Assembly: GCA_009839505.1 (NCBI GenBank)
Contig: VXPO01000153.1
Location: forward strand, 1-41,906
Length of the DNA stretch: 41,906 nucleotides
Source: Gammaproteobacteria bacterium
Lineage (GTDB): Bacteria; Pseudomonadota; Gammaproteobacteria; Pseudomonadales; Azotimanducaceae
Direction of reading: 5' to 3'
Below the pieces are notes generated by a model, which worked only from the letters and a program-made list of their open reading frames with translations, did not search any database and was not told where the DNA came from. Positions 1-40,464 of the stretch are shown piece by piece. Both the position numbers and the translations under genes were made by a program. The stretch's first letter is position 1. Every line of letters starts with the position of its first letter.

Positions 1-52
1 ACCCCGGGGCACAGCGAAGCGAAGCGCCGGGGACGGCTTTGGGGCGCTACGG
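1..52 (-). repeat. Stop-codon-embedded stem-loop repeat, copy 1 (cut by window edge)
   Basis: Read on the minus strand this starts with CCGTAG, the last codon and stop of the S41 peptidase gene, and continues GCGCCCCAAAGCCG, then a GC-rich stem around a loop rich in TTCGCTTCGC. The same sequence occurs at 20333-20411, 29716-29794 and 40273-40349, always in the same relation to a gene end. The window edge removes the distal half. It has no T-run, so it is not a standard intrinsic terminator; a REP-like mRNA 3'-end element is the nearest familiar class, by inference. Confidence 0.85.
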
Positions 53-2362
53 GCGTGTGGGACCGGTCACCACCGCCGTGGCCCGTTCCAGCAACTCATC
101 CCGTCCCGCGGCGATCCCCGCGATTGTTCGCGACACGGGCACCGTCGGTTGAATCCCGACGCCGTGGTGTTGCGAGCCGTCGTGCTTCAGAACGCGCATG
201 CCGGTCCAGGTGACGTGGTAGCCGCCTGGCAGCATGAACGGGTTGACGTTGCCGTTGGTGCCCGCCGTGGGTCCGCCGACGATTTCCGCCAGCCTGTAGT
301 GCTCGATGATGCCGAGAAGCGTCTCCGCTGCGCTGATCGCCCGTCCGTCGGTAACGAACGCGACGTTCTTCGTGAAACGCGGTTTCGAGGGCTGCACCGA
401 CCAGTTGCTGAACTGAAACTGCATGTCGCGACGGTCCGGATGGTGCACCAACGGGACGTGCCACTGAGCGGACGTGACCGTCTCGTCGATCAGATGGGCG
501 ATGACCGGAGTGAACGGGAAGGCGGGGTAGCCACGCAGGTCGAAAACGATGCCGTTGGCTTGGGAAAGCCTCGGCACGAGGGCGTTGAACTCCTGGATAT
601 CCTTGACCCGATCCAGGTCGACGTAGAGAACGCCGTCGATCAGCTCCGCGCCCTGCTCCGGACGCCGTTCGCGAACGACGCCGTCGCTCCAGGGCAGGAT
701 GTTCCTCTGTACCTCGACCATGCGTTCTTGCCCCGAGGGAGCGCGTAGCTTGAGCGCGATCGTCGATCCCGGTGCGCCCATGCCGATCTCGGAAAGGGCG
801 ATATGACGAAGGTACTGGCTTGTCGCCGCCGAGTTCGTCTCTGCGATCGACCCGAGTAGTTCGCCTAGCGGACGTCCATCTATTTCGGCTACCACGTCAC
901 CTGGTTGGAGTTCGTCCATCCCGTCCGCGACGGCAGTGACCACCAGCTCGTTGCCCACCCAGTCGCAGGCCAATGGAGGCAGGTGCATGGGACCACCGCC
1001 CGGGCCGGCGGCCCGGCCGTGTCCGTCGTGAAGATCGGCCACCAGCCGCTTCAAGGTATCGACGAAGTCAGTCTGATCCGCATCGACGGCGGCGGCCGGC
1101 AGTGACCGGCTCAGTGTGGCGCTCCAGTCGGCGTCGACGACGTCGAAATAGGGATAGAAGTGCTGGAACACGTTCCACGCCAGGGCGACGGCGGCGAGCC
1201 GGGTTGAACGGTCGTCTCCCGTCGGCCGCCAGTGGTCCGGAAAGCCGTCGGCGAGCACGGTGGTGGGTGTCCCTTCGAACAATGCCTCCAAGGCGACGGG
1301 TATGGCCGTTGGCACCAGCGCGGACACGCCACCGCCGAGGTCCGCCTCGATCGGCTCCCCGGGACTGACTGGCGCGGTCGTGGACGTGAGCAGCCTGCTC
1401 GAGTACATCGATGGCTGATCGCCCACCTTGACGCCGCGGTGTTCCCAGTAGCGGATCTCGCCCTCCTGTTTCGTGGCTAGATCGGTTGGCAAGGCCAGCG
1501 GATCGCCGGTGGGCGCCACGCGCACGGTGGGCGCAACGTCTTGGAACACGGCTTGAAGCGCTTTCGCGAGCTCCATGGCGCTACCGGCGGCTTCGACTTG
1601 GCGTATGGCGTTGATGGCGAATACGTCCCAGTCCGTGTCGGCGACCGCCTGGGTGGGATGGAAGTAGCGGACGTAGCCCAGTAGCCGCGTCAGTGCGATG
1701 AGATTGGCGAGACCGCGTTCGTCGAGTTCGCGCGGAGCCTGGTTGCCCTCGCCGGCCTCGCCGACGACGTCGACAGCGACGCTATCGAGCCACGCCTTGC
1801 CTCTACCCATGAGCATCATCCCGAAGTTGATTCGCTCGGCGTCGGCGGCGATGTCGCCGACGATCTCGAATCGTTGCCAGTCCTTGGAGCGGATAGGCCG
1901 GTCGTTCATGTTGTCGAAAAACCCGAGGCGCCCTCCTGTCCGGTCCTCCCGAAACCACGGCTGGGCTTGTCCGCTTGGGAATCCGGGCAGGGGCAGCGGA
2001 ACCTCGGTTCTCACCCAGCCGCTGAACCGCACCCGTTTGCCGCGATACGGCGTGCCATCGACGGTTTGCATCACGTTGCCGAATCCGCCGCCCGGCGGAA
2101 ACGTCGTCGTGTCGGTCGCCACCGTCGGGGTCTTGGCGACCACCGCGGAGAGCGTGCCCGTGTTGGCAGTCTCATCGCTCAGTTCGACGGTGTAGCCGCT
2201 TCGCTCGGTGACCAGCGGTGCGAACCAGCCGGTGGGCATTTCGCCGACGACGCCGTCTTCGAAGTCGAGATTCGTCGGCTCGGCGCTGACCGCACCTGTC
2301 GTAAGCGCCGTCACGACGAGTGCTGAACTCCACGCACCGCTGCGAACTGCAGCTGCTTTCAT
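47..2362 (-). CDS. Secreted S41-family peptidase (tricorn/CPBP-like) with PDZ domain
   Basis: A 771-residue exported serine peptidase. The first 27 residues form a signal peptide ending near AVSAEP, so it acts in the envelope or outside. An N-terminal beta-rich module (about 30-210, starting LDFEDG) resembles carbohydrate-binding-like domains of other S41 proteins; then come a helical region (VALAWNVFQHFYPYFD), a PDZ-like domain (LQPGDVVAEIDG) and the C-terminal protease domain. The likely nucleophile is Ser677 in AISAAE, followed by VGGPTAGTNGNV and LPGG, as in S41 enzymes using a Ser-Glu/His arrangement rather than the CtpA Ser-Lys dyad. The ATG at 2362 was chosen because it begins the signal peptide and overlaps the upstream stop codon as ATGA. 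Its own stop codon lies inside a dispersed repeat. Confidence 0.9.
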   Translation of the reverse strand: MKAAAVRSGAWSSALVVTALTTGAVSAEPTNLDFEDGVVGEMPTGWFAPLVTERSGYTVELSDETANTGTLSAVVAKTPTVATDTTTFPPGGGFGNVMQTVDGTPYRGKRVRFSGWVRTEVPLPLPGFPSGQAQPWFREDRTGGRLGFFDNMNDRPIRSKDWQRFEIVGDIAADAERINFGMMLMGRGKAWLDSVAVDVVGEAGEGNQAPRELDERGLANLIALTRLLGYVRYFHPTQAVADTDWDVFAINAIRQVEAAGSAMELAKALQAVFQDVAPTVRVAPTGDPLALPTDLATKQEGEIRYWEHRGVKVGDQPSMYSSRLLTSTTAPVSPGEPIEADLGGGVSALVPTAIPVALEALFEGTPTTVLADGFPDHWRPTGDDRSTRLAAVALAWNVFQHFYPYFDVVDADWSATLSRSLPAAAVDADQTDFVDTLKRLVADLHDGHGRAAGPGGGPMHLPPLACDWVGNELVVTAVADGMDELQPGDVVAEIDGRPLGELLGSIAETNSAATSQYLRHIALSEIGMGAPGSTIALKLRAPSGQERMVEVQRNILPWSDGVVRERRPEQGAELIDGVLYVDLDRVKDIQEFNALVPRLSQANGIVFDLRGYPAFPFTPVIAHLIDETVTSAQWHVPLVHHPDRRDMQFQFSNWSVQPSKPRFTKNVAFVTDGRAISAAETLLGIIEHYRLAEIVGGPTAGTNGNVNPFMLPGGYHVTWTGMRVLKHDGSQHHGVGIQPTVPVSRTIAGIAAGRDELLERATAVVTGPTRP

Positions 2363-3687
2363 TGGTCGTCTCCGTCTGTTGCAATGGCCGCAGTCCGCTC
2401 GACGCAAGACCCGCATATGAAATGGGTCTCGGGCGTCGCGGTGAAGAGGTTCGACTTGCCGCCGCAGTAGCCGCACCCGGTGAACACGTTGCTCTTTCCT
2501 GGACCGGAATGTCGCCGCATGACGCCATTCGACAACTGTCCGTCATTCAGTAGAGCCTTGCAGGCGTCGACGCACTCATCGCAGATGTGGCTGAAGGCAC
2601 TCGGGACGAGGAGCTTCACGTCGAAGCGTGGCTTGCGGCAGAAGCTGCAGAACGCGCAACTGGTGTCTCGCTCGTGCCCGATCTCATCGGCTAGAGCCAC
2701 CCGGGCTTCGGCAATCCCAATGCCGAGTTCCGTCAGCAAGTCGGGGCCGCCGGCGGTGTTGTCCTTCGACAGGATGCCGAGCAGCACGTGGTGGGACCGA
2801 ACCGTGTCGCGTGCATAGCGCGGTATGACCCGGGTCAACAGCGAGAAGGCTGCGGCGGGCACCGGCAATCGGTGGATGTCGAGACCGGCATCGTCATCGC
2901 CATCGCCGAGGGGAGTCGCGAGTCCTAGCCGTTCGGGGGTCGCCCCGAGGGACCGCAGAATGGACGCGGCGATCCCGCTGTCGCCGTAAACCAGCGATCC
3001 GATCAGGTGTCGTCCGGAGAGTGCCTCGTCTTTCTCATGCGCCATGAGCGAGCCGACGAGAACGCATTCCAACGCGGCCGGCGCATAATCCACCAGGGCA
3101 AGCTCTCCGAACACGCACTCGGTCGCGGACTCGCGCAACCGGATCGAAGCAAGTGTTGCCTCGAGTCCCGGTTCGGTGACGGCCCGGTTGGTGGTGATGA
3201 GCCTCAATCGCATCAGATGATTGCTGTGCTCCAAGCAGTAGTGACGCATGTACTCCGGCGCACCGAAGGCCTCGGTGCATTCCAAGCGGATCGCCGGCTT
3301 CCCGTCGAGCGTCGCGTCGGCGTATTCGAACTTGCCGTAGGCCGTGGAGAGTTCGCGCTCGATCGCTTCTGCTGCTGCCCGAGGGGACACGGGAACATCC
3401 CCTTGACGGCTGTAGACAAGCTCGAATTCGGCATGCGATTCGTCGGTACCGCTCGCCTGGTAGTGCATCGCGGGACGGAGCGCGCTCCAAATCGAGTGTG
3501 TGATGCGTTGCCAGCCTGAGGGCATCTCGATGGAGAAACCAAGATCGGCCAATGTGGCCCGTTTGCTACTGGACATGGTTGAAGCCTCCGCTTGGCGGCG
3601 GAAGTGCCAGAGGGCAGCCGTATAGGACTCGCCGCTACGCGCGGCGCGGGCTCGAACGAGCCGCTTGAAATGCTTGTCGACTGTCAC
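2359..3687 (-). CDS. Clp-N-like / ClpX C4-zinc-finger protein without AAA+ motor
   Basis: A 442-residue protein of unusual composition. Residues 4-30 are a basic helix (KHFKRLVRARAARSGESYTAAL). Residues 46-190 resemble a PsbP/DcrB-type fold (GFSIEMPSGWQRI). Residues 203-335 contain two helical segments like the Clp N-terminal repeat (SGRHLIGSLVYG and SHHVLLGIL). A ClpX-type C4 zinc finger follows (C347, C350, C369, C372; ends HICDECVDAC), then a second C4 finger (C405, C408, C425, C428). There is no Walker A/B or other ATPase motif. The start is a GTG with AGGA just upstream. It is translationally coupled (ATGA) to the S41 peptidase, so a substrate-binding or adaptor role beside a protease is inferred, not shown. 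Confidence 0.85.
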   Translation of the reverse strand: MTVDKHFKRLVRARAARSGESYTAALWHFRRQAEASTMSSSKRATLADLGFSIEMPSGWQRITHSIWSALRPAMHYQASGTDESHAEFELVYSRQGDVPVSPRAAAEAIERELSTAYGKFEYADATLDGKPAIRLECTEAFGAPEYMRHYCLEHSNHLMRLRLITTNRAVTEPGLEATLASIRLRESATECVFGELALVDYAPAALECVLVGSLMAHEKDEALSGRHLIGSLVYGDSGIAASILRSLGATPERLGLATPLGDGDDDAGLDIHRLPVPAAAFSLLTRVIPRYARDTVRSHHVLLGILSKDNTAGGPDLLTELGIGIAEARVALADEIGHERDTSCAFCSFCRKPRFDVKLLVPSAFSHICDECVDACKALLNDGQLSNGVMRRHSGPGKSNVFTGCGYCGGKSNLFTATPETHFICGSCVERTAAIATDGDDQ

Positions 3688-19858: not shown

Positions 19859-20338
19859 GTGCCGATGCTCACCGACTGGAACAGAAAGGAGTTCTGGAAC
19901 CTCGCGGCGATCGTCTGGGCGGCGGCACTCGTCGCCGGTGCCCAGATCCTGGAACTCGGATTCGGTCAGGAGCCTTGCGCCCTGTGCGTGAATCAAAGGC
20001 TCTGGGCCATGCTCGCCGGATTGATCTGCGTCGCCGGCTTTGCGCACAACCCGCGCCTTGGAATCTACCCCCTGCTGGCGGCCCTTGCGTCGATCGCCGG
20101 TGCGGCATTCTCCATTCGCCACCTGTATCTGCTGACACTTCCGGCCGACCAGGTTCCGGGATGCGGCGTCGGCTTGGAGTACATGCTCGACGTCTTTCCG
20201 CTCACGGACGTCCTTCGCCAGATGACGATTGGCACAGGAGAGTGCGCCGAACAATCCTTCGTCGTACCCGCGCTCGCGCTTGCAGGTTTCGTTGTCATGA
20301 TCGTGCTTGCGGTCACGTACTGGCGCAGTCGCCCGTAG
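19859..20338 (+). CDS. dsbB: Disulfide bond formation protein B (quinone-linked DsbA oxidase)
   Basis: 159 residues with four predicted transmembrane helices. The first redox pair is CALC in EPCALCVNQR (preceded by Gln/Glu as usual, followed by the quinone-contacting Arg); the second periplasmic pair is Cys in PGCGVGLEYML and Cys in TGECAEQ. It re-oxidises DsbA and passes electrons to quinone. The start is GTG at 19859 or ATG two codons later. The TAG stop lies in a dispersed repeat. Confidence 0.95.
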   Translation: MPMLTDWNRKEFWNLAAIVWAAALVAGAQILELGFGQEPCALCVNQRLWAMLAGLICVAGFAHNPRLGIYPLLAALASIAGAAFSIRHLYLLTLPADQVPGCGVGLEYMLDVFPLTDVLRQMTIGTGECAEQSFVVPALALAGFVVMIVLAVTYWRSRP

Positions 20339-20411
20339 CGCCCCAAAGCCGTCCCCGGCGCTTCGCTTCGCTGTGCCCCGGGGTTCGCCTCCGGCCCAGC
20401 CACGCCGACCT
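20333..20411 (+). repeat. Stop-codon-embedded stem-loop repeat, copy 2
   Basis: Starts with CCGTAG, the final Pro codon and stop of dsbB, then GCGCCCCAAAGCCG; stem CCCCGGCGC (20353-20361) pairs, with one mismatch, to GCCCCGGGG (20375-20383) across a TTCGCTTCGCTGT loop; then GGTTCGCCTCCGGCCCAGCC and ACGCCGACC. A further GC-rich stretch with small hairpins (GGTCGC/GCGACC, CCCGG-TT-CCGGG) runs to about 20460. Confidence 0.88.
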
Positions 20412-20480
20412 TGTGGTCGCCCTGCGACCCTTGCGGTCGCCCGTAGACCCGGTTCCGGGCGCGCCACAACGCTTTGGCGA

Positions 20481-29596: not shown

Positions 29597-29715
29597 GGAG
29601 CGAAGGAGCTAGCGTACACGCAGAGGCCACGGGTTGGGACTGCGCTACCGTGTCGCCCAGGTAGACGCCTACGACCAAGTTGTCTGTGTGTCCGCTCGGC
29701 ATGGGCGACCAGGAG

Positions 29716-29794
29716 GGTCGGCGTGGCTGGGCCGGAGGCGAACCCCGGCGCACAGCGATAGCGAAGCGCCGGGGACGGCTTTGGGGCGCTACGG
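29716..29794 (-). repeat. Stop-codon-embedded stem-loop repeat, copy 3
   Basis: On the minus strand it begins CCGTAG, the last Pro codon and stop of hemY, and continues GCGCCCCAAAGCCG. Its stem is perfect over 9 bp: CCCCGGCGC and GCGCCGGGG, where copy 2 has a mismatch; the loop reads TTCGCTATCGCTGT. It ends GGTTCGCCTCCGGCCCAGCC and ACGCCGACC. Downstream (29600-29715) no gene was recognised. Confidence 0.88.
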
Positions 29795-30952
29795 TTTGAG
29801 TTCCAATGCCCGTCGATAGTGACGGTTGGCCGCCGCCGCATCGCTGTTCGCGGTGCTGAGAGCGGCGAGTTCTTCAAGAGTCTCGGTGTTCTCCTCTCGG
29901 ACAAGGCTGGCCTCAAGGTACTCCTTGGCCTTCGCCGAGTCGCCGGTGGCATTCGCCAGCCGCCCAAGGGTGAGCAGCAGCGCAGGATCGTCCGGGTGCC
30001 GCTTCGACCAGGCCACGGCGTGCGCAAGTTGCTTGGCAGGATCGGCGTCGAGGGTGCCGTAGCGCTTCACCCAAGCGTCTCGCCATTGTCCCTTCAGGGC
30101 GTGACGCAGTTCCGCCTCGGCCTCGTCGGGCGCCTCCGTCGACGTTGCATCGACAAAGTCCAGAAGCAATTGCTCGTCGGCGCGTAGCTTCTTTGGAACG
30201 GACTTCCATGCCCTGCGTGCATGATCGGCCGCGTTGGCGCTGTGGCGCGATCGGGAAAGGCGCGACCGCCAGATCTCCCTCTGCACGTCGTCCGCATCGC
30301 CGTCCTTGGGCACCTCGCCTGCAAGGTCCGCCACGGCCTCCCAGTCGTCCAGCGCCTTGTGGGCCTCGAACAGTCGCTTGATCACGACCGGATGGCGGGG
30401 CGCTTTCCGGCGCAACGGCCCCAGGGTGTCGATACTGGCGCGCCATTGTCCGGCAGATTGCTGCAGCTCGGCGTGAACCAAGCCTACGGCGAACGCAGCA
30501 TCGGGTGTGGACTCGCGCGCCTTCTTGAGGATCGCGTCGCGCTCTTCGAAGCGGCCCATTTCGGTCGCTGCGCGTGCTGCGGCAAAGTGGTTGAAAAGTG
30601 GTGTGTCGACCCGCTCGGCGGAGGCTTGGAACGCATCGCTCGCTTCCTGCCAGCGTTCTTCGGCGAGGAGCATGAGTCCGCGTACGGTGCGGTTTCTGGC
30701 GGTGGTGGTTCGGCGCGACCGGACCCAGCCGGAGACAGCCGAGCCGCCGCCCAGCACCCGGCGCGTCACTAGCACAAGGGCGTAGATGACAAGGACTAGG
30801 ACGACAACGGCGGCGATGGCAAACCAGAGACTCGTCTCCAGGGTCGCGCCGCCGTAGGAGATGAGGACATAGCCGGAATCCCGAACCATCAACGTCGCGA
30901 GCACGGCGCCGACGGCGACCGCGAGGATCAGCAGGACGAGGAAGACGATCAC
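29789..30952 (-). CDS. hemY: HemY-like TPR membrane protein
   Basis: 387 residues. Two N-terminal transmembrane helices (VFLVLLILAVAVGAVLATLMV and SLWFAIAAVVVLVLVIYALVLV) match the HemY N-terminal domain; TPR-type helical repeats fill the remainder. This proteobacterial HemY is found in hem operons but is not protoporphyrinogen oxidase; its biochemical role is unclear. It starts with GTG overlapping the hemX stop (GTGA). The stop codon is supplied by the dispersed repeat. Confidence 0.93.
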   Translation of the reverse strand: MIVFLVLLILAVAVGAVLATLMVRDSGYVLISYGGATLETSLWFAIAAVVVLVLVIYALVLVTRRVLGGGSAVSGWVRSRRTTTARNRTVRGLMLLAEERWQEASDAFQASAERVDTPLFNHFAAARAATEMGRFEERDAILKKARESTPDAAFAVGLVHAELQQSAGQWRASIDTLGPLRRKAPRHPVVIKRLFEAHKALDDWEAVADLAGEVPKDGDADDVQREIWRSRLSRSRHSANAADHARRAWKSVPKKLRADEQLLLDFVDATSTEAPDEAEAELRHALKGQWRDAWVKRYGTLDADPAKQLAHAVAWSKRHPDDPALLLTLGRLANATGDSAKAKEYLEASLVREENTETLEELAALSTANSDAAAANRHYRRALELKP

Positions 30953-35514: not shown

Positions 35515-36739
35515 CGGCGGGGAACTACAGGTCGACGGTGTTCCGCTCGCGCGTATCGCCGACGCCGTGGGTACCCCCGCCTACGTCTATTCTTGGCCTG
35601 CGGTGCGGGATCGATACGCAGAGCTCGAGTCTGCGCTGGACGGCACCGGTCAACGCATCTGCTACTCGGTCAAAGCCAACGGCAACCTCGCCTTGCTGGC
35701 GCGGCTGGCCAAGCTGGGAGCGGGCTTCGACATCGTCTCCGGGGGCGAGTTGGAGCGAGTCCTGCGCGCTGGTGGCGACCCGGCGCGGGCCGTCTTCTCC
35801 GGCGTGGGCAAGTCGGTCGAGGACATCGACTTCGGGATCAAGTGCGGCATCGACGCGTTCAACGTCGAAAGCGCCTCGGAACTCGACCGGATCGAGTCAC
35901 GCGCCCGGGTGATCGGCCGTCGGGCGCGGGTGTCGATCCGCGTCAATCCCGACGTGGATGCCCACACCCATCCCTACATCGCCACCGGACTCAAGGAGAA
36001 CAAGTTCGGCGTGCCCCCGCAGGTCGCTCTGGCCCTGTACCGCCGGGCCGCGGCGTGCCCGGATTTGCAGGTGGTCGGCATCGCCTGCCACATCGGCTCT
36101 CAGATCAGCCAGGTGGAACCGTTCCAGGAGGCGTTGTCCGGGCTGCTCGGCCTGGTCGATGCCCTCGGCAAGTTCGGCATCGCTATCGAACACCTCGACA
36201 TAGGCGGCGGCTTCGGGATCGTCTACCAGGACGAGGCGCCACTCGATCTCGCTGCGTTGGGCGACGTGTTGCGGGCCACGCTCGGTCGGCGTCCCGTCAA
36301 GCTGTTCGTCGAACCGGGACGCCTTCTGGTCGCCGAGGCGGGAGTCCTCCTCACCCGGGTCGAGTACTTGAAACCCGCCCCGGCGCCCGGCTACCGGAAC
36401 TTTGCCGTGGTGGACGCCGCCATGAACGACCTCATCCGACCGGCCTTGTACAGTGCATGGCACGCCGTGGAAGCGGTCGCCGAGCGCAGAACCCCGACGC
36501 GGCGCTGGGACGTGGTGGGCCCGGTGTGTGAAACCGGCGACTTCCTCGCCCTCGACCGGGAGCTCTCCCTGGCCGAGGGTGATCTGCTCGCCATCCGCGA
36601 AGCGGGCGCGTACGGTTCTTCCCAGAGTTCCAACTACAACACCCGCCCGCGACCCCCGGAAGTGATCGTCGACGAGGGCGGCTTCACGGTCGTGCGCAAG
36701 CGGGAGACGGTCGCCGACCTGCTACGGCTGGAGTCGTAG
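35498..36739 (+). CDS. lysA: Diaminopimelate decarboxylase
   Basis: 413 residues; decarboxylates meso-DAP to L-lysine with PLP. The PLP lysine is Lys59 (CYSVKANGN); HIGSQI, DIGGGFGI, EPGRLL, PVCETGDF and the terminal YGSSQSSNYNTRPRPPEV complete the family pattern. The ATG at 35498 overlaps the end of lptM by 17 bp. It works next to dapF, which supplies meso-DAP. Confidence 0.98.
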   Translation: MPYARSGGELQVDGVPLARIADAVGTPAYVYSWPAVRDRYAELESALDGTGQRICYSVKANGNLALLARLAKLGAGFDIVSGGELERVLRAGGDPARAVFSGVGKSVEDIDFGIKCGIDAFNVESASELDRIESRARVIGRRARVSIRVNPDVDAHTHPYIATGLKENKFGVPPQVALALYRRAAACPDLQVVGIACHIGSQISQVEPFQEALSGLLGLVDALGKFGIAIEHLDIGGGFGIVYQDEAPLDLAALGDVLRATLGRRPVKLFVEPGRLLVAEAGVLLTRVEYLKPAPAPGYRNFAVVDAAMNDLIRPALYSAWHAVEAVAERRTPTRRWDVVGPVCETGDFLALDRELSLAEGDLLAIREAGAYGSSQSSNYNTRPRPPEVIVDEGGFTVVRKRETVADLLRLES

Positions 36740-36763: not shown

Positions 36764-36848
36764 GGGGACATCCACCCTTCGCGAAAGAGGCGCGAAAGAG
36801 GGGACATCCACCCTTCGAGCGAAAGGAGATCCAAGGGTGGATGTCCCC
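36764..36848. repeat. REP-like element: two direct and one inverted 16-18-bp repeats
   Basis: GGGGACATCCACCCTTCG occurs at 36764-36781 and 36800-36817; its inverse AAGGGTGGATGTCCCC lies at 36833-36848. The outer pair can form a 16-bp stem. Similar ggg(t)ggatgtcccc palindromes are seen near REP-associated transposases in other gammaproteobacteria (from memory). No transposase is present here. It lies 25 bp after lysA and abuts a toxin remnant. Confidence 0.85.
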
Positions 36849-38564: not shown

Positions 38565-39592
38565 GCAACGCCAGCGGCAGGGAAGCCCGGCAACAGGGTC
38601 GTCGCGACGACGCGCGCCAAGGTACGCGTTCGGGACTCCCGGCCGACGTCGATCGATTCCTCGCCCACATGGCGGTGGAGCGGCGTGCCTCGCCCCACAC
38701 GGTAGCGGCCTACCGGCGGGACTTGGCGCGATTCACCCGTGAACTGGGCGCGGCTACGGGCGGCGAGTCGGGCGCGCACGAGGCTCAGCCGCGCGATGTC
38801 CGGTCGGGGGATGTGCAGCCGAGGGATGTCCGAGAGTTCGCGGGTCGCCTGCATGCGCGCGGTCTGTCGCCGCGTTCGGTCGCGCGCCACCTGTCGAGCG
38901 TACGCAGCCTCTTCGACTACCTGGTTCGCCGCCGGGAGTTGGGGGCGAATCCGGCGAGCGGCGTTCGAGCTCCGAAACAGCGAGAACGCCTACCCAAAAC
39001 CATGGATCCCGATCAGACCGCGCAGCTGTTCAGCGAACGCGCGGAGTCCGCCATCGACTTGCGCGATCGCGCCATGCTGGAGTTGCTTTACGGCAGTGGG
39101 CTCCGCCTTGCGGAACTCGTCGCCATCGACATCCGCGACCTGGATCTTGCCAACGGCTTCGTACGGGTGACCGGCAAGGGACAGAAAACCCGGGTAGTGC
39201 CGGTGGGCGGCGCGGCGGCCGAGGCGGCCCGAGCCTGGCTCGCCAAACGCCCGGAAGCCCGCGGCGGCGATCCGCTGTTCGTGGGTCGCGGCCAGAAGCG
39301 CATGTCACCGAGGAACGTGCAGTTGCGCCTGAAGAGGGTTGCGGCGCGCACGATGGGCAACGACGGTCTGCATCCCCACCTGTTGCGGCACAGCTTCGCC
39401 AGCCACGTGCTCGAGTCCAGCGGCGACCTGCGCGCGGTCCAGGAGATGCTGGGGCACGCCGACATCTCCACTACGCAGGTCTATACCCACGTCGACTTCC
39501 AGCACCTGGCCAAGGTCTACGACGCCGCCCATCCCCGTGCGCGACGCGTGGCTGAGGCAGGGTCTCCCCCGGAGGAGGAAACGGCGCCGTGA
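38561..39592 (+). CDS. xerC: Tyrosine recombinase XerC
   Basis: 343 residues (about 300 is usual); with XerD it resolves chromosome dimers at dif. The catalytic set is present: Arg in GSGLRLAEL, Lys in GKGQKTR, HLLRHSFASH, LGH and Tyr308 (TTQVYTH). The core-binding domain has about 18 extra residues containing a duplicated QPRDVR, encoded by a 30-bp-period direct repeat (38786 and 38816). There are also a 23-residue N-terminal extension and a longer tail. Confidence 0.96.
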   Translation: MSNASGREARQQGRRDDARQGTRSGLPADVDRFLAHMAVERRASPHTVAAYRRDLARFTRELGAATGGESGAHEAQPRDVRSGDVQPRDVREFAGRLHARGLSPRSVARHLSSVRSLFDYLVRRRELGANPASGVRAPKQRERLPKTMDPDQTAQLFSERAESAIDLRDRAMLELLYGSGLRLAELVAIDIRDLDLANGFVRVTGKGQKTRVVPVGGAAAEAARAWLAKRPEARGGDPLFVGRGQKRMSPRNVQLRLKRVAARTMGNDGLHPHLLRHSFASHVLESSGDLRAVQEMLGHADISTTQVYTHVDFQHLAKVYDAAHPRARRVAEAGSPPEEETAP

Positions 39593-40278
39593 TCCGGCTG
39601 GTCACGTTCGACCTCGACAATACCTTGTGGAGCGTCGACCACGTGATTGGACGGGCGGAGGCCCGCATGCGCCGATGGCTCGAACCCCGGGTTCCCGAGT
39701 ACGCGAAGCTCGCCTCGGCTGAACACGGTGCGATCCGCGACGGCGTGATCGAGGCCAACCCGAGCATCGTCCATGACATCTCGGCGTTGCGGGAAAGGAT
39801 CCTCGCCAAGACCATCGAGCATTGCGGTTACGACTCCGAGACCTCGGTGCGGCTGGCGGCGGCGGCCTTCGCGGAGTTTCTCGACTGGCGGCACCGTATA
39901 GAGTTCTTCGACGGCGCCCTGGACGTGCTGGCTGAGTTGGCTGCGACCTACACCTTGGCTTCCCTGACCAATGGCAATGCCGACTTCCGGCGGCTGGGGT
40001 TGGATCGGTTCTTCGCGTTCGGCTTCTGCGCGGCCGATGTGGGCGCCAACAAGCCTCACACCGCCATGTTCGAGCAAGCGCTCGCCAAGGCCGGAGTGGC
40101 GCCCCACGAAGCGGTACACGTCGGCGACCATCCGGTCGACGACATGCAAGGCGCACAGGCCGCAGGCATGGCGACGGTCTGGGTGAACCTCGTGGCTTCC
40201 GACGAGAGGCCGAACGCCACCGCAACGGTGACGAGCCTCGCGGAAATCCCCGCCGTGATCGAAGCACTCAACCCGTAG
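39589..40278 (+). CDS. HAD-family hydrolase (YigB-like)
   Basis: 229 residues with HAD motifs I (FDLDNTLW), II (SLTNGN), III (Lys in GANKPHTAMFEQAL) and IV (HVGDHPVDDMQGAQ). E. coli YigB, in the same xerC-linked position, dephosphorylates FMN and other small phosphates, so a flavin mononucleotide phosphatase role is likely. It starts with GTG overlapping the xerC stop (GTGA) and ends in a repeat-supplied TAG. Confidence 0.94.
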   Translation: MIRLVTFDLDNTLWSVDHVIGRAEARMRRWLEPRVPEYAKLASAEHGAIRDGVIEANPSIVHDISALRERILAKTIEHCGYDSETSVRLAAAAFAEFLDWRHRIEFFDGALDVLAELAATYTLASLTNGNADFRRLGLDRFFAFGFCAADVGANKPHTAMFEQALAKAGVAPHEAVHVGDHPVDDMQGAQAAGMATVWVNLVASDERPNATATVTSLAEIPAVIEALNP

Positions 40279-40349
40279 CACCCCATAGCCGGCCCGGCAC
40301 TTCGCTTCGCTGTGTGCCGGGTTCGCCTCCGGCCCAGCCACACCGACCT
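40273..40349 (+). repeat. Stop-codon-embedded stem-loop repeat, copy 4
   Basis: Begins CCGTAG (last Pro codon and stop of the HAD gene) then CACCCCATAGCCG. Relative to copy 3 the stem has a paired change: GGCAC/GTGCC replaces GGCGC/GCGCC, keeping 8 bp (CCCGGCAC with GTGCCGGG). The loop TTCGCTTCGCT and the tail GGTTCGCCTCCGGCCCAGCC are conserved. Confidence 0.85.
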
Positions 40350-40402
40350 CCCATGGAACAAATCCCGTTTGTTGCCTGGCGGTCAGCGGCGCTCGCTGCC
40401 GG

Positions 40403-40464
40403 GAGAATTCGCGCAGCGAATTCTCGGGGCGACCGCGCGCCCCTCGGGCGCGATGTGGTCGCCC
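40403..40464. repeat. Double hairpin element between HAD gene and thrC
   Basis: GAGAATTCGC-GCA-GCGAATTCTC (40403-40425) is a perfect 10-bp stem with a three-base loop; after GG it is followed by a nested hairpin, GGGCGACC (40427-40434) with GGTCGCCC (40457-40464) outside and CGCGCCC-CTC-GGGCGCG (40436-40452) inside. It lies between convergent genes, so a bidirectional termination or boundary role is possible. The first half is the 27543-27585 element in the opposite orientation. Confidence 0.82.

Follow-up and report, generated by a model that had tools for sequence, protein, structure and literature searches.

The window, which is the entire 41,906-nucleotide stretch analyzed here, constitutes contig C173 of a 4.70-Mb draft genome in 181 contigs (G000). 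It harbors four copies of a dispersed repeat that an earlier note had described as supplying the proline codon and the stop of the gene that each copy follows. All four copies are present at the positions given there, and in a chance test GGTTCGCCTCCGGCCCAGCC gave 3 matches against 0.02 expected. At each copy CCG TAG is, in frame, the end of the adjacent gene, and these genes encode an S41 peptidase, DsbB, HemY, and a HAD phosphatase (Table 1). Copy 1 is truncated at base 1, where the contig also ends. Each of the three complete copies is followed by a piece of REP sequence.

Table 1. Genes, repeat copies, and REP sequences of the window, with the general form of the element
Feature	Position	Strand	Family match or sequence
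S41 peptidase gene	47..2476	-	PF03572, E 4.9e-12
CCGTAG, final codon plus stop of the S41 peptidase gene	47..52	-	
Element body, cut by the contig end	1..46	-	
dsbB	19859..20338	+	PF02600, E 1.9e-26
CCGTAG, final codon plus stop of dsbB; GTAG interpreted as REP foot	20333..20338	+	
Element body, left part only, second hairpin missing	20339..20406	+	
Classic REP remnant, fused to the element	20407..20422	+	GACCTTGTGGTCGCCC
Second REP-like remnant, GTAG at its end	20424..20446	+	
hemY	29789..30952	-	TIGR00540, E 5.2e-72
CCGTAG, final codon plus stop of hemY; GTAG interpreted as REP foot	29789..29794	-	
Element body, left part	29720..29788	-	
REP remnant	29703..29719	-	GACCCTCCTGGTCGCCC
HAD-family phosphatase gene	39589..40278	+	PF00702, E 3e-21
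CCGTAG, final codon plus stop of the HAD phosphatase gene	40273..40278	+	
CATAG-subfamily element; includes an extra module and a portion of the second hairpin (40348-40373)	40279..40425	+	
Classic REP body, directly 3′ of the element	40426..40464	+	GGGGCGACC..GTGGTCGCCC
Element with two subterminal hairpins			CGCCCCAAAGCCGTCCCC...TTCCATGCAAG
Element ends			CGCCCCAAAGCCG ... TTCCATGCAAG

Architecture and folding of the element

The repeat of 79 nt that was first recognized represents the left portion of a longer element, about 125–129 nt in length, with two hairpins. Many full-length copies measure 125 nt and extend from CGCCCC to ..TTCCATG and then nnAG; longer forms carry an additional inner hairpin or module. 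The first stem begins ~14 nt past the GTAG and has the form CCCCGGCGC/GCGCCGGGG in 17 of 45 copies, and the second hairpin is CATGGA..TCCATG. No gene was seen inside the element. Longer copies also contain, or are followed by, another repeated module (GAGAATTCGCGCAGCGAATTCTC-like, with GGCGGTCAGCGGCGCTCGCTGCC) in either orientation, namely in L091, L015, L104, and the window (40374–40425).

The paired stem change from GCGC to GCAC/GTGC, from which selection for the hairpin had been deduced, is real and is joined by two more double changes (GGGGC/GCCCC and GACGC/GCGTC), yet the case for conservation of the hairpin is weak. A single C–C mismatch is found in 7 of the 45 copies scored for the stem, window copy 2 included, and the window copies fold near the level of shuffled sequences, with z-scores of +0.36, −1.76, and −0.62 as RNA (−3.43 for a classic REP) and +0.25, −1.43, and −1.36 as DNA. 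The idea of strong selection on the hairpin was accordingly dropped as weak. On the basis of the same z-scores and the distance of the stem, the element also lacks the short palindrome that stands right behind the GTAG in GTAG-tagged REPs.

Other identities were considered and dropped. No Rfam family reaches its gathering score in the window, which removes a known RNA family as a candidate for the element. An intrinsic terminator was rejected for copy 2, the one copy covered by the terminator scan, where the sole terminator-like site between 20250 and 20550 lies at 20462–20479, outside the element. A link of the flank to one of the internal tetranucleotides AAAG and ATAG proved to be no more than a loose association.

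Stop-codon phase across the genome and the genus

The head of the element (CGCCCCAAAGCCGTCCCC without GTAG, at most two mismatches) has 73 matches in G000, compared to 3 for the reversed pattern. Such a number of copies, mainly beside genes, is a feature that the element shares with GTAG-tagged REPs. From these matches 72 copies were recovered, with GTAG before 62 and CCGTAG before 50; one lies at a contig end and has no flank, and the more divergent window copy 4 falls outside this set. Of note, contigs C22, C23, C37, C43, C116, and C173 start or stop in or a few bases from a repeat copy, so that the draft may understate the number of copies.

Genes were called by a codon model trained on the genes of the window rather than by annotation. 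When the 300 nt upstream of each copy are scored by codon usage, the best frame is that of the TAG in 48 of 70 testable copies; the others divide equally between a different sense frame (11) and an antisense frame (11). Among the 59 copies for which a sense frame scores best, 48 thus have that of the TAG (binomial p = 4.6e-14 for an expectation of one third). Under stricter gene models, an upstream sense gene stops exactly at the TAG (or TAA) in 42 of 70 copies, a count that leaves out 2 of the 72 at contig edges. The remaining 28 comprise 15 copies at 7–349 nt past a stop (measured up to the first base after GTAG), 2 that are read through, and 11 behind an antisense gene. By the same measure, no sense copy lies 1–6 nt past a stop; the smallest offsets are 7 and 11 nt (element) and 12 nt (classic REPs).

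In G011, a second species of the genus, the exact stop coincides with the repeat in 14 of 22 element copies. The stop-codon pattern is real and strong and holds genome-wide, with most copies in frame, though not all, and it thereby passes the genome-wide check set by the earlier note. The rule of four copies out of four is valid within the window and weakens to about 60% across the genome; likewise, the terminal proline common to the four window genes is shared genome-wide by 32 of the 46 gene ends with the head.

Classic REPs provide the reference for these values. GGGCGACCCTTGTGGTCGCCC occurs at 189 places in G000 (control 0) and GGGACGGGCTTGTCCCGTCCC at 347 places in G010 (control 1), and 30 loci of each were read. 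GTAG precedes 29 of 31 testable classic copies in G000 and 26 of 32 in G010. These plain REPs, whose bodies differ from the element, likewise supply stops, with the TAG exactly at the end of the gene in 8 of 31 and 8 of 32 cases, respectively. Among the other gene ends read in G000, just 7 of 204 end in CCGTAG, and a REP then follows in 5 of those 7. The exact-stop share of the element, 56/92 in G000 and G011 taken together, exceeds the 16/63 of plain REPs (p = 1.7e-5) and also the 15/50 obtained when the latter are counted per REP cluster (p = 0.0008). Copies that have lost their tail are in frame in 20 of 26 cases versus 18 of 35 for those that retain it (p = 0.06).

REP sequence and old gene ends beside the element

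Within 40 nt behind full-length copies, REP arms are found in 10 of 19 that follow GTAG (6/9 in G000 and 4/10 in G011) and in 2 of 17 with other flanks. GGG stands directly behind the element in 12 of the 19 GTAG copies versus 2 of the 17 others (p = 0.002), the latter two having the flanks CCGTAA and CCGCAG. This second result leans on G011 (9/10 GTAG copies, compared to only 3/9 in G000). Nine copies of that species have CAAGGGGC in common, so that GGGC may there belong to the end of the element. A stricter test for a hairpin in the right flank gives 7/19 versus 2/17, a difference that is not significant (p = 0.13). The GGG and hairpin tests score L129 and L326 as misses, although a REP body starts one base off in both.

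Exact nesting is seen in L004, L121, and L134, where the element directly adjoins GTAG (GTAA in L004) on one side and the classic REP body GGGCGACC on the other; L129 has the same arrangement but for one base. On a wider scale, REP pieces occur within 250 nt downstream of 17 of the 34 in-frame copies with that length of sequence, the other 17 having none, versus 13 of 116 element-free gene ends (p = 4.5e-6); among copies that are not in frame, 9 of 21 have one. A sister set of related copies without GTAG also exists; it sits elsewhere, and GAAG, which is among its flanks, is one base from GTAG. No empty site from the same species was encountered. Because of the REP-arm excess behind GTAG copies and these sister copies, the GTAG most likely belongs to a host REP that already supplied the stop, rather than to the repeat.

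The comparison of gene ends with repeat-free orthologues, as proposed in the earlier note, was carried out for 40 element-bearing genes, whose C-terminal pieces were searched together in four species of the genus. The search gave 118 orthologue places, with 8 of low identity left out, and 111 aligned ends, of which 109 were kept after leaving out 2 weak ones. Most orthologues end within a few residues of the same place as the element-bearing gene. For example, DsbB ends in WRSRP* with the element and in WRQR*, WRSR*, WRSRA*, and WRMR* in four element-free orthologues, the stops of which are TAA, TAG (cgcTAG), TAA, and TGA, respectively. The proline is older than the element in a few genes (L231, L232, L171, L177, and L195), and some REP-less orthologues (L171 and L195) terminate in CCG TAG at the same place.

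A perfect hairpin stands right behind the stop in 8 of the 109 orthologue ends, all eight with GTAG and distributed over 8 of 36 genes; in terms of the stop, this corresponds to 8 of 54 TAG ends and 0 of 55 TGA or TAA ends. The hemY orthologue in L141 (Pseudomonadales bacterium, 81% identical) ends in LKP with CCGTAG, followed by a different REP-like repeat. These orthologue hairpins and L141 fit the presence of REPs at some of the stops before the element arrived.

At three loci the old gene end is still readable downstream of the insert. In L013, sequence 126 nt past the TAG corresponds to the final codons and TGA of the orthologue L206, and the insert is bounded by GTAG and CTAC, its right end being a classic inverted REP. 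In L023, the old TAG region is found ~190 nt past the new TAG. In L045, CCGCCC TCA corresponds to the final two codons and the stop of L226, although the stop has decayed. In each case the insertion point is a few codons before the old stop, and the TAG of the insert is the new stop; several inserts have CTAC at the end. The TAG therefore came with the inserted DNA, be it REP or element. With regard to the earlier proposal that the repeat targets or captures stop codons, capture is borne out at these three loci for the composite, whereas the TAG itself most likely belongs to the REP. That the TAG is solely a pre-existing target is unlikely in view of the three downstream ends and the DsbB orthologues without GTAG.

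The explanation that is considered probable, with moderate confidence, consists of two nested layers in which GTAG-tagged REPs supplied stops and the element was later inserted between the REP foot and the REP hairpin. It builds on the observed exact-stop positions, the full length of the element, the REP-arm excess behind GTAG copies, and the three downstream old ends. In the first layer, classic GTAG-tagged REPs, mobile as GTAG...CTAC units (REPINs), would enter gene ends inside or beside the last codons. Where the phase fitted, the TAG of the REP foot would become the new stop, and the old stop, pushed downstream, could decay. In the second and later layer, the non-autonomous element of ~125–129 nt would insert between the GTAG foot and the REP hairpin, and what had first been read as one repeat would be the left part of the element plus the foot of the REP. 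The origin of the GTAG from a REP in every case, movement of the element in the manner of an IS200/IS605-type miniature, and its better survival where the TAG serves as a stop are steps that we infer. The link to stop codons is real, although it was probably inherited for the most part from known REPs.

Nesting alone does not predict the exact-stop excess of the element over plain REPs, and survival bias is a possible source of it. A more specific and rather doubtful suggestion is that stop-codon capture is a survival strategy, in which nesting in repeats that serve as stops protects the element since loss of the composite would cost the gene its stop. If true, this would explain both the 56/92 versus 16/63 and the in-frame excess among tail-less copies.

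Alternatively, composites of GTAG, element, REP half, and CTAC may now be copied as one REPIN-like element by a RAYT-type enzyme, which is possible but on balance unlikely. One element/REP junction is common to the window copy at 20333, L003, and L023, and the CTAC at the end of several inserts also suits such copying. However, the right flanks derive from different REP bodies, namely GGGCGACC, GGGACGGGC, and GGGCGGGG, which favors separate insertions, and no matching RAYT was found.

Somewhat less plausible still is that the element itself carries the (CC)GTAG, inserts into gene 3′ ends as one unit, and supplies the stop. GTAG before 62 of 72 copies, the old gene ends downstream of the insert in L013, L023, and L045, and the 9 of 19 full-length GTAG copies without a REP arm within 40 nt would agree with a unit of this kind. 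Against it stand the REP arms behind 10 of 19 GTAG copies versus 2 of 17 others, the sister copies without GTAG, and the insert of L013, which terminates in a classic inverted REP and CTAC.

It is improbable that the element targets existing GTAG stops of ordinary genes, with GTAG as the target tetranucleotide of an IS200/IS605-like insertion. The REP-less orthologues ending in CCG TAG at the same place (L171 and L195) suggest it, but CCGTAG is found at only 7 of 204 other gene ends, 5 of them with a REP behind, whereas GTAG is common in other places, with 223 sites in the window. In addition, three loci have the old stop on the downstream side of the TAG, and the dsbB orthologues end in TAA, TAA, TGA, and, in one case, cgcTAG. 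A functional 3′-end module for termination, ribosome rescue, or mRNA stability is highly improbable, for although the three double stem changes and PMC12306157, which reports work linking REPs within 15 nt of a stop to lower translation, speak for it, the element folds near the shuffled level, 28 of 70 copies do not coincide with a stop, and the window has no match to an Rfam family. A literature search on ribosome rescue yielded no primary source on REPs.

Relation to known systems and candidate mobilizing enzymes

IS200/IS605-type miniatures are characterized by two subterminal hairpins, no terminal inverted repeats, and a fixed short left flank. The element resembles them in having two subterminal hairpins, no terminal inverted repeats that could be seen, and a fixed short left flank; it differs in that no autonomous parent was met in the loci read.

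REPs that supply TAG stops have already been published (PMC3733652). The shared feature is the GTAG foot; what differs from the repeats described there is the element of 125–129 nt behind the GTAG, often with a REP body next, as well as the counting of the exact-stop share (42/70 and 14/22). Insertion sequences that target fixed points of REPs are likewise on record, and, according to PMC1525189, ISPa11 inserts between bases 6 and 7 of its REP. The element shares with ISPa11, ISPpu9, and ISPpu10, as presented there, the specific insertion at a fixed REP point and differs in that no coding capacity is seen, the insertion is directly behind the GTAG, and there are tens of copies. REPINs and RAYTs (PMC3116915, PMC2817692) are matched by the paired inverted REPs and the GTAG...CTAC bounds at L013. 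They differ from the present case, in which the CGCCCC element is not palindromic right behind the GTAG and only a divergent Y1/RAYT-like relative below the family cut-off is found.

No description of the element was found in the one library of papers that was searched, by words and not by sequence. What is new is the element, its likely nesting, and the exact-stop share of 56/92 versus 16/63 for plain REPs. A published one-line remark on REPs and TAG stops becomes a counted, phase-resolved case in which three old ends can still be read, and it suggests a second mobile element that exploits the stop-codon position. The case also offers a way to approach the entry of REPs into genes and their persistence at stop codons, and it is a warning for annotation, as the last residues and stops of genes in such genomes can originate from mobile elements.

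Concerning the mobilizing enzyme, G000 encodes a 238-aa Y1 protein related to REP-associated transposases, with NF047646 scores of 31–33 bits relative to a cut-off of 80. It has 13 matches in G000, many of them (L061 and L062 being examples of the gene) at contig ends, so the transposase breaks the assembly. The gene is multi-copy in G000, G007, G008, and G010, yet G011, with its 22 element copies, has a fragment only; its presence across species does not track the element, and it was rejected as the mobilizer. In L061 and L062, where the upstream sequence is short, classic REPs are absent and any head-like sequence has at least 3 mismatches. No matching RAYT was found, only this divergent relative below the family cut-off, nor was a single-copy RAYT gene flanked by a REP, as is typical of RAYT-served REPs.

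A separate short motif, GGGGACATCCACC, has no exact match near the Y1 genes among the loci read. Three exact copies are found in the window on the minus strand (36764–36776, 36800–36812, and 36836–36848), two direct and one inverted, behind a TCGTAG stop at 36739. Similar strings lie 3′ of head copies in L065, L077, and L083.
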